In this document: positions 32,942 to 37,092 of the stretch, piece after piece
How the letters are laid out: each line of letters starts with the position of its first letter
Position numbering within the stretch: position 1 is the first letter of the stretch
Origin: Treponema sp.
GTDB lineage: Bacteria > Spirochaetota > Spirochaetia > Treponematales > Breznakiellaceae
DNA length: 52,774 bases
Reading direction: 5' to 3'
NCBI GenBank assembly: GCA_012517385.1
Contig: JAAYUZ010000064.1
Coordinates: 1-52,774, forward strand
Position numbers and translations under genes: made by a program
Notes under the pieces: model-generated
The model's database searches: none
What the model saw: the letters and a program-made list of their open reading frames with translations, nothing else
Told to the model about the DNA's origin: nothing

Positions 32942-33475
32942 ATGCTATGTGATATGTGCGGAAAACGGGAAGCCATTGTTTTCATTCATCAGGTAGGGGC
33001 TGAGGAAAAAAAAGAGCTGCACCTCTGTGCCCAGTGTGCCTATGAGCATGGGCTGCAGCATCTCGAAGGTGATGTCGGGAAAGCCCTCTCTGAGCTTCTC
33101 AAAAATCTTTCTCTGGATAAGATCCCAACAGCGGGCGGAAACCTAATTTCCAAACAAAAAAAGAAATATCCCGAACACTGCTCAAACTGTGGTGTTTCGC
33201 TTCAGGACATTAAAAAGAATCCGATAGCAGGCTGTGAATCCTGTTGGAACAGTTATGCTGATCTGCTTTTGGGTTCAGTAACAAAGCAACGGGTCTCTGT
33301 GCCCTATAAGGGGCGGTTTTCAGTAAAAATCGCTGAGTCCATAGCTAAAAAACAGGAACTTGATCGGCTTGAACAGTTATTACATACCGCCGTTGTTATG
33401 GAAGATTATGAACAGGCTGCCATATACCGGGATCGTATTCGTCTGCTTAAACAGGGAGAAAAGGTCGATGAATAA
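32942..33475 (+). CDS. mcsA: McsA, zinc-finger UvrB/C-motif activator protein
   Basis: A 177-residue protein. In Bacillus, McsA activates the protein-arginine kinase McsB and helps deliver substrates to ClpC. Here the zinc CxxC pairs are all kept: LCDMCGK (3,6), HLCAQCAY, HCSNCGV and GCESCWN. The C-terminal UVR motif (DRLEQLLHTAVVMEDYEQAA, about 140-172) is the usual ClpC/McsB contact. It overlaps mcsB by 8 bp and precedes clpC, the canonical mcsA-mcsB-clpC order, though no ctsR is seen here. Confidence 0.9.
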   Translation: MLCDMCGKREAIVFIHQVGAEEKKELHLCAQCAYEHGLQHLEGDVGKALSELLKNLSLDKIPTAGGNLISKQKKKYPEHCSNCGVSLQDIKKNPIAGCESCWNSYADLLLGSVTKQRVSVPYKGRFSVKIAESIAKKQELDRLEQLLHTAVVMEDYEQAAIYRDRIRLLKQGEKVDE

Positions 33476-34544
33476 GGCCTGCGTTGAGAACTGGTTCTGG
33501 TTTGGCGATAATTCAGATCTGGATTGTATTGTCTATTGCCGGCTTGGATTATACCGGTCTATTGCGGGGGAACTTTTTCCTCATCGTTGTACCAATGAAG
33601 ACCTGGAAGAAATTCAAACACGGCTGCTTCGATCCCTTTCATCAATTGAAAGCGAATCCCAGTATATTATTTCACCACACGGTGAAGTGGATTGCCTCTC
33701 ATCTGTCCGTGAAGTGTTTGATGTTTCATCAATTTCCACAGTACAACCTGGTCAGGCAGTCATTCTAGGTTCAAAGGGTTTCTTTGCTACCATCAATATG
33801 AATGCTCATCTGTATTTTTCACAAATGGGACCTGGAACGCAAAAGCTCGAAACATGGAAAGAACTTATTGCTCTTGATGAAAGGCTGGACCATGAACTCG
33901 AATGGGCCTGCATGGAAAACTATGGTTTTTTAAATCCGGATCCTCATCATATCGGGAGCGGATTGGAATGTGAAGCCCTTCTTTTTCTGCCGGGGATCAT
34001 GGATAGTTCCATGTATGAACGGGTTATGAAGGGGCTTTTATCCCAGGGGTTTGAACTTTCAGTGTATAATGGGGATGATTCACAGGGGGAAGCCGCCTCT
34101 CCTTTTGTTAAGCTCCACTATACGGTACCACCTGGAATGCCAGAACAGGAAGGAATTGAGCGGATTAAAAATGCCCTGGACGGTCTTATTACCGGAGAGC
34201 GGGCTACCAGGGATCGATTGGCACAAAATATTTCAGATGAAATTGCCGATAGTGCCAGCCGTGCCTTTGGGGTGCTTTCACATGCACGGCTTTTAGAAAA
34301 AGAAGAATGCCGAACATATTTGTCTGATGTAAGGAAAGGGCTTGTATATAACTGTGTGCACTTTGAACATCAAGAAGGGCTTTTACAACACCTTGATCGG
34401 TTATGGTTCACAACAGAAGCCCTGATTCGTCAGAATCTGGAAATGATAGAACCACATCAAATCACCGAAAAAAATATCAAAAGCCTTCGGGCAAAACTTG
34501 TCCGGAGCATACTTTCGCAGTACCATATAGATAGGGGGATATAG
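33468..34544 (+). CDS. mcsB: McsB-like protein with degenerate kinase site
   Basis: A 358-residue McsB homologue, identified by position and by scattered similarity (IHxFP-like LYRSIAGELFPHR, SRAFGVLSHARLLEKEE, LSDVRKGL). McsB phosphorylates arginines to tag proteins for ClpC. The guanido-kinase residues are gone. The ATP-binding SSRIRLARN is YCRLGLYRS. The catalytic NEEDHLR loop is NMNAHLY (110-116), losing the Glu and Arg. CPTNLGTGLR is NPDPHHIGSGLE (156-167), losing Cys and Arg. RGxYGEGSE is VYNGDDSQ. Catalysis is very unlikely, so it may act as a binding adaptor to McsA and ClpC. ATG 33468 is set by AAAAGG and the McsB-like length; the reading frame is open back to 33360 but that part overlaps mcsA. 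Confidence 0.78.
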   Translation: MNKACVENWFWFGDNSDLDCIVYCRLGLYRSIAGELFPHRCTNEDLEEIQTRLLRSLSSIESESQYIISPHGEVDCLSSVREVFDVSSISTVQPGQAVILGSKGFFATINMNAHLYFSQMGPGTQKLETWKELIALDERLDHELEWACMENYGFLNPDPHHIGSGLECEALLFLPGIMDSSMYERVMKGLLSQGFELSVYNGDDSQGEAASPFVKLHYTVPPGMPEQEGIERIKNALDGLITGERATRDRLAQNISDEIADSASRAFGVLSHARLLEKEECRTYLSDVRKGLVYNCVHFEHQEGLLQHLDRLWFTTEALIRQNLEMIEPHQITEKNIKSLRAKLVRSILSQYHIDRGI

Positions 34545-34545
34545 C

Positions 34546-37092
34546 TTGTTTAAAGGTCTTACTCAGCGGGCACAACGAATTCTCACTGTTATAGCCCAGG
34601 ACGAAGCTCGGCGTTTTCATAGTGACCAGCTTTTGCCTGAGCATATTCTTGTTGCAATCATTAAGGATGGTTCAGGAACGGCCTGCAGGGCTTTGGAAGA
34701 TCTGGCTATAGATCTCCAGGATTTTCGGCATGTACTGGAACGGGAAATACCTCAAAAAACCGGAACTTTTATTTTTGGTGATGTGCCACCCTCCCGCAGG
34801 GCCCGAACGCTCCTGGAAGCTGCCGCAGAGGAAGCCCGTAGCTTTGGTCACGAATATGTAGGTACAGAGCACCTGCTTCTGGCATCCATCAGGGAAGAGG
34901 ATTCACCCTCTGCAAGGTACCTTTTTGAAAAACATATCAGTCCTGAGATGCTTCGGTCTACAATTCAATTGGTATTAAGTCAAATCCGGGACGATAATCC
35001 TGCGGAGGATCCGAGGGATAGCTCTCATATCCCAAATTCAAATCCTTTTAGCAATACAGTGCCTGGGGGTGTAAAAAACACAAGGACCCCCATACTCGAT
35101 GAGTTTTCCAGGGATCTCACCGCCATGGCCCGGCTCGGTTCTTTGGACCCGGTAATTGGCCGCGAAAAGGAGGTTAAACGGGTAGTCCGTATTCTTGCAC
35201 GGCGAACTAAGAATAACCCTATCCTGGTGGGAGAACCGGGGGTAGGAAAAACCGCCGTTGTAGAAGCCCTGGCCCAACTAATTGCTTCGGAAAATGTCCC
35301 GGAAATACTCGCTGAAAAGCGGCTTCTGGCCCTCGATTTGGCCTCCGTGGTGGCAGGTACAAAATATCGGGGTGAATTTGAAGAACGGCTTAAGAAGATA
35401 ATGAAGGAGATCAGCCAGGTCGGCAATATTATTCTTTTTATCGATGAAATCCACACCGTCATTGGAGCCGGTGGCGCGGAGGGCACCATCGATGCTTCTA
35501 ACATGCTGAAACCCGCCTTATCCCGGGGTGAAGTGCAATGTATAGGTGCTACGACCCTCTCTGAATATCGCAAACACTTTGAAAAGGATGCAGCCCTGGA
35601 ACGGCGTTTCCAGATGGTTCCGGTAGAAGAAGCAGGTTTGGAAGAAACAATACAGATTTTGAGGGGAATTAAGTCTCGCTATGAGGAACATCACCGGGTA
35701 AGCTACAATGATGGAGCCATAGTCGCAGCAGCAACTCTGGCTCAGCGGTATATCACCGGCCGCTTTATGCCAGACAAGGCCATAGACCTTCTCGACGAGG
35801 CTGGAGCGAAACGAAAACTGGAAACCGATATTAAACCAGCCGAGCTGGGTGATATAGAAAACGAGATAAAGCGGCTTACGGAAGAAAAGGTTCGCCTCGT
35901 AGCAGCCCAGGATTACGAAAAGGCAGCGGAACTACGGGATCAGGTGCGATCTCTCCGATACCAGCTGGAATCGGTAAAAAGGGCCTGGGAGCGGCTTTCC
36001 CGGGAAGAACGGCCTGAGGTTACCGAAACTGATATTCGGCAGGTTGTGGCGGAAGCCACAGGTATTCCCCTGGCAAGGCTCGAAGAAAGTGCATCCCGCA
36101 AACTGCTCCGTATAGAAGAAGAACTTCACCGATCCGTAATCGGACAGGACGATGCGGTCCAGCGTATTGCTGCTGCAATCCGGCGGAGCAGGGCTGGGGT
36201 TTCATCCCTGAAGCGACCCCAGGGATCCTTTATTTTCCTGGGTCCTACAGGGGTCGGTAAGACACTCCTCGCAAAACGGCTTGCCGAATACCTTTTTGGA
36301 ACCGAAGAGGCGCTGGTGCGGATTGACATGTCCGACTACATGGAAAAACACAATGCATCCCGCCTAGTTGGTGCCCCCCCAGGCTATATTGGGTATGAAG
36401 AAGGGGGCGTTCTCACGGAAAAAATCCGCAGAAATCCCTATCGGGTCATCCTCTTCGATGAAATCGAAAAGGCCCATCACGATGTCTTTAACCTGCTCCT
36501 TCAGGTACTCGAAGAAGGAGAACTCAAGGATAACCTAGGCCATACGGTAAGCTTCCGTAACACGGTGATAATAATGACAAGCAATGCCGGTGCCCGCGAA
36601 ATTTCCCGGGATGCACGGCTCGGCTTTAACCCAGATTCGGGTATCATGAACTTAGAAGAAATCCGTTCAGCTGCCCTTACAGAACTTAAGCGGCTCTTTA
36701 ACCCTGAATTCATTAACCGGGTTGATGACATCGTGGTCTTCCATGCACTGAACAGAGAACAGGTACAGGCTATCCTTACCCTGGAAATTCAGGATCTTAA
36801 TAAGCGGCTCCATGACCAGGGATATACTATCCAGGTAAAACAAAGCGCTCAGGATATTCTGATTGAAAAAGGGTGGGATCCCAAATATGGTGCCCGCCCC
36901 ATGCGTCGGGCCATACAAAAGGAATTGGAAGATGTTCTGGCGGTGCTTATCCTTGAACAGGAGTATCCCGCCGGTACCGTCTTTATTGCGGAAGGACGGG
37001 ATGGTAAAATCAGCATAAAACCCAAAAGGAACAAACCAACCTTGGTAAGTTCCGTCCCCGTAGTGCCCACAGAACCAATCAGCAAATCCTAG
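34546..37092 (+). CDS. clpC: ClpC AAA+ protease ATPase/unfoldase
   Basis: An 848-residue Hsp100 ATPase, the unfolding partner of ClpP. N domain 1-145 (two Clp_N repeats). D1 Walker A is GEPGVGKT (229-236) and Walker B IILFIDEIH. A middle domain carries a UVR motif (447-475, AAQDYEKAAELRDQVRSL). D2 Walker A is GPTGVGKT (566-573), with VILFDEIEKAH and the C-terminal GARPMRRAIQKELED. It is longer than the Bacillus protein by a C-terminal tail of about 30 residues. TTG start at 34546 is supported by AGGGGG 7 nt upstream and lies one base after the mcsB stop. The tail after residue 815 is Pro/Lys-rich. The ClpP-binding loop was not checked. Confidence 0.95.
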   Translation: MFKGLTQRAQRILTVIAQDEARRFHSDQLLPEHILVAIIKDGSGTACRALEDLAIDLQDFRHVLEREIPQKTGTFIFGDVPPSRRARTLLEAAAEEARSFGHEYVGTEHLLLASIREEDSPSARYLFEKHISPEMLRSTIQLVLSQIRDDNPAEDPRDSSHIPNSNPFSNTVPGGVKNTRTPILDEFSRDLTAMARLGSLDPVIGREKEVKRVVRILARRTKNNPILVGEPGVGKTAVVEALAQLIASENVPEILAEKRLLALDLASVVAGTKYRGEFEERLKKIMKEISQVGNIILFIDEIHTVIGAGGAEGTIDASNMLKPALSRGEVQCIGATTLSEYRKHFEKDAALERRFQMVPVEEAGLEETIQILRGIKSRYEEHHRVSYNDGAIVAAATLAQRYITGRFMPDKAIDLLDEAGAKRKLETDIKPAELGDIENEIKRLTEEKVRLVAAQDYEKAAELRDQVRSLRYQLESVKRAWERLSREERPEVTETDIRQVVAEATGIPLARLEESASRKLLRIEEELHRSVIGQDDAVQRIAAAIRRSRAGVSSLKRPQGSFIFLGPTGVGKTLLAKRLAEYLFGTEEALVRIDMSDYMEKHNASRLVGAPPGYIGYEEGGVLTEKIRRNPYRVILFDEIEKAHHDVFNLLLQVLEEGELKDNLGHTVSFRNTVIIMTSNAGAREISRDARLGFNPDSGIMNLEEIRSAALTELKRLFNPEFINRVDDIVVFHALNREQVQAILTLEIQDLNKRLHDQGYTIQVKQSAQDILIEKGWDPKYGARPMRRAIQKELEDVLAVLILEQEYPAGTVFIAEGRDGKISIKPKRNKPTLVSSVPVVPTEPISKS

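Follow-up and report, generated by a model that had tools for sequence, protein, structure and literature searches.

The marking of bacterial proteins for ClpCP is ascribed to the enzyme McsB, and the residues that this requires have been mapped in Bacillus subtilis, where each of the substitutions R29K, R31K, R34K, R125K, R176K, R207K and R337K abolishes kinase activity in vitro and where the C167S variant is likewise kinase-inactive (PMC7235348). With C167S, MgsR was still degraded faster than in the deletion, from which the authors deduced a kinase-independent adaptor function, but the effect of the variant was only partial, and ClpX rather than ClpC was suggested to act on MgsR (PMC7235348). 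Phosphoarginine is received by the RDxxRA motif, that is R337, D338 and R341, together with S285 (PMC8370763), the zinc finger of McsA contacts McsB in Staphylococcus aureus at Y147-Y153, just ahead of the cysteine (reviewed in PMC12467219), and ClpC has phosphoarginine pockets at E32 and E106, which also stabilise its resting state and are covered by MecA (PMC12583610). Arginine phosphorylation has furthermore been proposed for Chlamydia (PMC11708050, PMC10128030), and C. trachomatis ClpCP was found to degrade casein in vitro only if this was arginine-phosphorylated, the substrate having been phosphorylated with Bacillus and Geobacillus McsB and not with chlamydial McsB (PMC10128030). Among openly licensed papers we found no relevant one on spirochaete McsB and none that calls spirochaete or chlamydial McsB catalytically dead, which is no proof of novelty.

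The homologue described here belongs to a Treponema sp. of the family Breznakiellaceae, with a genome of 2.97 Mb that is 93.8% complete, and lies between mcsA and clpC in a window of 52,774 nucleotides, by which we mean the whole stretch of DNA that was analysed. Its features are listed below; substitutions are given in B. subtilis numbering, obtained through an alignment with PDB 8wtb as the chain number minus 2 (C169 becoming C167 and the RD pair R337/D338).

32942..33475, + strand: mcsA, encoding McsA, which has four CxxC pairs and, at its C-terminus, a UVR motif; 8-nt overlap with mcsB
33468..34544, + strand: mcsB homologue whose active site has degenerated, encoding a protein of 358 aa (pseudo-McsB)
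33534..33560, + strand: YCRLGLYRS, equivalent of SSRIRLARN; R29 and R34 kept, R31 replaced by G
33795..33815, + strand: NMNAHLY, equivalent of NEEDHIR; E120M, E121N and R125Y, with H123 kept
33909..33929, + strand: residues 148-154, equivalent by alignment of the S. aureus McsB Y147-Y153 loop; conserved within the genus
33933..33968, + strand: NPDPHHIGSGLE, corresponding to the SCPTNVGTGLR loop, with C167D and R176E; inside the 25-residue stretch of the protein that is best conserved in the genus
34059..34091, + strand: SVYNGDDSQGE, equivalent of RGIYGEGSE; R207S and E212D, E215 ambiguous, locally low model confidence
34143..34514, + strand: helical C-terminal domain (residues 226-349) corresponding to the dimerisation domain of McsB; most family-invariant residues present
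34476..34493, + strand: IKSLRA, in the place of the phosphoarginine receptor RDxxRA; R341-A342 retained, but R337 and D338 lost
34546..37092, + strand: clpC, encoding a protein with two Clp_N repeats, a pair of AAA modules with their Walker A boxes, and a UVR motif; equivalents of E32 and E106 present

The open reading frame of mcsB runs from an ATG at 33468 to a TAG stop at 34542-34544, and when start, stop and codon count were rechecked the coordinates 33468-34544 and the 358 codons given in an initial annotation of the window proved exact. The same annotation had the gene overlapping its neighbours, which is correct for mcsA, ending at 33475 and hence sharing 8 nt with mcsB, whereas the junction with clpC, which starts with a TTG at 34546 one base past the mcsB stop, abuts without overlap. 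Both partners are intact, as had been proposed, since the four CxxC pairs of McsA (C3/C6, C29/C32, C80/C83 and C98/C101) and its UVR motif are all present and ClpC has both Walker A boxes and a UVR motif. It had also been argued that the gene is not a pseudogene, and indeed a pseudogene, a frameshift or an assembly error can be ruled out, since four species of the genus have the frame open and share most of the changes in it, most of the active-site losses recurring in the three other members. Furthermore, mcsB is under purifying selection, a comparison of two genus members giving a dN of 0.031, a dS of 0.226 and a dN/dS of 0.14, and it evolves faster than the compared part of clpC in the same two (dN 0.0095, dS 0.267, dN/dS 0.04).

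Pseudo-McsB is an McsB by descent. It matches the McsB chains of the PDB with an E-value of 1.5e-21 (phmmer) and Pfam ATP-gua_Ptrans with 44.9 bits (cut-off 22.4), and it has the genetic partnership of the family with mcsA and clpC; its best NCBIfam equivalog score is 112.9 bits against a cut-off of 385, which intact spirochaete homologues miss too, so that this shortfall says little about activity. An AlphaFold2 model (mean pLDDT 92.1, pTM 0.90) superposes on McsB 6fh1 with a Z of 35.0 and an rmsd of 2.8 over 341 residues (VIA-align), a match that is expected and not independent since the model was built from 60 homologues. Both McsB domains appear complete in this model, the superposition giving a phosphagen-kinase-like domain and, after it, the helical dimerisation domain of McsB, and family-invariant positions are kept far more often in the C-terminal domain (17 of 20) than in the catalytic part (17 of 55; Fisher p 4e-5).

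The residues R29, R31, R34, E120, E121, R125, C167, R176, R207 and E212 are invariant in 34 of 34 intact controls, which comprise four Planctomycetota/Kiritimatiellae and 30 Bacillota McsBs, the latter being the best 30 of 189 positive genomes and therefore leaning towards typical forms; R86 was dropped as a catalytic marker, being conserved in only 3 of the 30 Bacillota. Alignment with characterised McsB chains, which the initial annotation had suggested as a check, reveals that eight of the ten are missing from pseudo-McsB (R31G, E120M, E121N, R125Y, C167D, R176E, R207S and E212D) and that only R29 and R34 are retained. The alterations that had been read from the motifs hold up for the NEEDHIR loop, now NMNAHLY, and for the cysteine loop, where CPTN..GLR has become DPHH..GLE. 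SSRIRLARN has likewise been replaced by YCRLGLYRS, but two of its three arginines remain and only R31 is gone, and in the GEGSE loop R207S and E212D are confirmed while E215 is ambiguous, a Glu two residues further on (SQGE) aligning with it in both HMMER and MAFFT. Compared with the B. subtilis mutants, pseudo-McsB is without C167 and without five of the seven essential arginines (R31, R125, R176, R207 and R337), so that the catalytic Glu and Cys, the essential Arg set apart from R29 and R34, and R337/D338 of the RDxxRA receptor are all gone. Catalytic positions are lost in excess of other family-invariant positions in Chlamydiota (p 0.008) but not significantly so in pseudo-McsB alone (p 0.17), in which a good deal of the catalytic domain near the pocket is altered as well. 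The fold is present, the catalytic residues are gone and the gene is maintained, and the earlier description of the protein as a pseudokinase is strongly supported by residue loss, published mutagenesis, kept fold, operon and purifying selection; that it is a catalytically dead form of McsB is in other words well supported.

Pseudo-McsB is the sole PF00217 (guanido-kinase) match found in the Treponema sp. genome, and a second, intact McsB elsewhere was sought by protein and by PF00217 without success, the single-contig relative G001 having one match only. The sole low-molecular-weight phosphatase found in the genome carries the signature CTGNSCRS, which we take to be typical of arsenate reductases, and not the YwlE-type CTGNTCRS. 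The latter is present in three of three Bacillota and in one intact spirochaete (G070), is absent from most intact spirochaetes and was found in none of the eroded-McsB genomes tested; as a witness for phosphoarginine loss this pattern is only suggestive. The ClpC pockets were considered as a second witness and say nothing on phosphoarginine, since the E32 and E106 equivalents are found beside pseudo-McsB and also in 16 of 16 relatives without McsB (the two glutamates of the S. aureus ClpC reference being checked against primers printed in PMC12583610). The kept pockets do leave room for a MecA-like adaptor using them. The proposal that arginine-phosphate tagging is absent in this lineage is supported by the single PF00217 match and by the lack of a YwlE-type signature, but it was drawn too narrowly, the loss of the catalytic cysteine extending across class Spirochaetia and Chlamydiota, in loci that have retained mcsA.

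A profile search of 392 spirochaete genomes found 220 to be McsB-positive, and the active site was read in 61 spirochaete sequences; the class and family names of the groups compared are those that we presume to apply. Comparison with other spirochaete homologues, likewise suggested at the outset, established that the loss of C167 is common to the class, the residue being absent in 44 of 44 McsBs of Spirochaetia and present in 9 of 17 from other spirochaete classes. Since these nine also retain E121 and both RxR arginines, intact-looking McsB does exist within Spirochaetota. Within class Spirochaetia, E121, R31 and R176 are lost patchwise, the genus of the present Treponema sp. being among the most eroded, and the decay is stepwise across the order. 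Among 116 genomes of Chlamydiota, reached via the chlamydial 16S signature, 98 have an McsB homologue, and all 57 of the chlamydial McsBs that were read (loci L224-L281, e.g. L265:2018-3088) are without C167, R31 and E120 and without almost all pocket arginines, E121 remaining in 10 and H123 and R34 in all. A cysteine is often found in Chlamydiota at position 171, four residues past the lost one (e.g. DPLRCGTAL in L265), and a Hydrogenedentota homologue (L286, genome G545) has a long lid-loop insert and almost no catalytic residues. One chlamydial mcsB, from a genome of 1,044,459 bases, is flanked by tRNAs and lies between a secretin-like gene and frr-/pyrH-like genes, and its product scores 590 bits with the NCBIfam model NF002191 'protein arginine kinase' (cut-off 381). 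We take this McsB to be of the C. trachomatis type, partly from gene order. The tRNA flanking agrees with the C. trachomatis mcsAB locus, which is also tRNA-flanked (PMC10128030).

A phosphorylation-free arrangement probably extends across class Spirochaetia and Chlamydiota. In a tree of 93 sequences, calculated with the motif columns left out, Chlamydiota form one supported clade apart from most of class Spirochaetia, the grouping of all dead forms in a single clade is rejected with a p-AU of 0.0005, and six changes are required on the best tree. More than one loss of activity is thereby supported, the number being uncertain on account of several long and open deep branches. Losses of the catalytic core and of D338 are strongly correlated in raw counts, but on the tree they come down to just two independent pairs. 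It should also be mentioned that the dead McsB L108:797-1828 is sister to the intact L100 within the intact clade, with mcsA and clpC still adjacent, and apparently represents an independent loss of activity.

The order mcsA-mcsB-clpC is found in nearly all spirochaete loci examined, and co-occurrence was compared by eye. None of the 392 spirochaete genomes has an McsA match at E <= 1e-12 without McsB, while in about 13, of which nine belong to family f49, McsB is accompanied by no more than weak McsA matches. In this family (G100, G117, G133, G157, G164, G176 and others) the McsB matches are themselves very weak (E 1e-4 to 1e-12), and the matches are either extremely diverged pairs or chance. 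In the Breznakiellaceae sample, strong McsA occurs in the four McsB-positive genomes and not in the rest, none of the complete genomes sampled that lack mcsB having a strong mcsA, and most relatives retain ClpC; G004, G017 and G021 (Breznakiellaceae/f1), like most of the family, have kept clpC with no detectable mcsB. In the sister family f4, McsA and McsB share one reading frame in two genera (L117:1486-3057 and L118:2322-4574), suggesting a natural fusion that ties the two physically, and the McsB of this lineage is also without the catalytic cysteine. Within the genus, the most conserved 25-residue stretch in four species comprises residues 152-176, i.e. the former cysteine loop (76% invariant vs 40% overall), and since this stretch adjoins the equivalent of Y147-Y153 a retained contact with McsA is favoured. 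The pocket of the genus has become fixed with the sequence NPDPxHxGSGxE, H114, D158, H161 and E167 being conserved in the four species.

On balance we favour the notion that a complex of McsA and pseudo-McsB acts as a phosphorylation-independent adaptor of ClpC, a role that is predicted from the operon and the precedent of McsB and that we hold to be probable though by no means certain. The zinc finger of McsA would dock on the loop next to where the catalytic cysteine used to be, holding pseudo-McsB as a stable complex, and this complex would recruit or release ClpC and present substrates to ClpCP without phosphorylation, which is the adaptor half of the known dual role of McsB. The faster evolution of mcsB than of clpC counts against this notion, as do the ability of C. 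trachomatis ClpC to respond to phosphoarginine and the partial effect and suggested ClpX partner of the B. subtilis precedent. The faster evolution is equally what would be expected of a lineage that first lost the kinase activity and is now losing mcsAB altogether, as most genera of the family have done, and the absence of both mcsB and mcsA from most sampled genera of the family and the stepwise erosion across the order fit such a decay as well. We nevertheless find decay towards loss unlikely, since four species of the genus have a full-length frame with a dN/dS of 0.14, since the former active-site loop is the most conserved stretch, the opposite of free decay, and since the form without the cysteine has been retained throughout the class and in all Chlamydiota examined, including reduced genomes of 1.0-1.2 Mb. 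That same conservation may alternatively mean that the active site has been repurposed for ligand binding or for a different reaction, as in some other pseudokinases, and the fixed NPDPxHxGSGxE with its four conserved residues as well as the presence of H123 and R34 (B. subtilis numbering) in all Chlamydiota read would agree with this; the pocket residues vary however between families, and the adjoining McsA contact loop explains the conservation equally well, so that we likewise consider a new use of the pocket improbable.

Two further explanations would have the protein do something other than serve ClpC as a dead kinase. Pseudo-McsB may regulate McsA or another unfoldase such as ClpX, which we regard as quite unlikely given that the order mcsA-mcsB-clpC is so widely kept, even though the occurrence of McsB is mirrored more closely by McsA than by ClpC, B. 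subtilis McsB has itself been suggested to act as an adaptor of ClpX (PMC7235348) and mcsAB is found apart from clpC in Chlamydia (PMC10128030). It is also conceivable that the protein is still an arginine kinase with a rearranged catalytic site, since R29, R34 and H123 remain, an acidic residue is found near E212/E215, and the chlamydial cysteine often lies four positions past the lost one; some cysteine mutants of arginine kinase are moreover reportedly partly active, to judge by the title of one paper. Both glutamates of NEEDH, the cysteine, R125, R176 and R207 have however gone together, and in B. subtilis these three arginines do not tolerate even lysine (PMC7235348), which makes persisting kinase activity very improbable. 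A bolder form of the adaptor reading would be that McsA and a dead McsB constitute a phosphoarginine-free branch of ClpC control with more than one origin (Spirochaetia and Chlamydiota at the least), with the NPDPxHxGSGxE pocket of the genus rebuilt for docking or ligand sensing; in this full form the idea is speculative and probably does not hold.

Kinase residues are missing, to varying degrees, in all Spirochaetia McsBs examined, and even reduced genomes have retained the McsA-McsB pair. The Chlamydia papers propose McsB phosphorylation as a developmental trigger, yet the required residues are missing in every chlamydial McsB examined. If the adaptor reading is true, McsAB would operate without phosphoarginine in one whole phylum and one large class, the adaptor function of McsB could be studied separately from its kinase function, and current database names, such as the arginine kinase of NCBIfam NF002191, would mislead.

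Among known systems, pseudo-McsB is closest to the McsBs of B. subtilis, G. stearothermophilus and S. aureus (6tv6, 6fh1 and 8gqd), with which it shares the whole fold, domain order and length as well as the McsA partner and the clpC neighbour, but unlike these it has lost the catalytic Glu and Cys, most of the phosphate-binding Arg residues and R337/D338 of the receptor. The phosphagen kinases, i.e. arginine and creatine kinase, resemble the model in the catalytic domain alone (Z about 19-20); they do not have the McsB C-terminal helical domain, and in their wild-type forms they have, unlike pseudo-McsB, the catalytic residues. The McsB of Chlamydia (CT675, annotated as protein arginine kinase) is like pseudo-McsB in being without the catalytic Glu and Cys and the RxR arginines and in having mcsA adjacent, but it belongs to a separate clade, its clpC is not adjacent, and it is treated as an active kinase in the literature and by NCBIfam. 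The C167S variant of B. subtilis McsB is, like pseudo-McsB, without the catalytic cysteine and keeps a kinase-independent adaptor effect, but it is a laboratory point mutant in which the other residues are intact. MecA, finally, binds ClpC and delivers unmodified substrates, which is the way in which pseudo-McsB is proposed to work; the two proteins are as far as known unrelated, and the likeness is one of proposed mode only.
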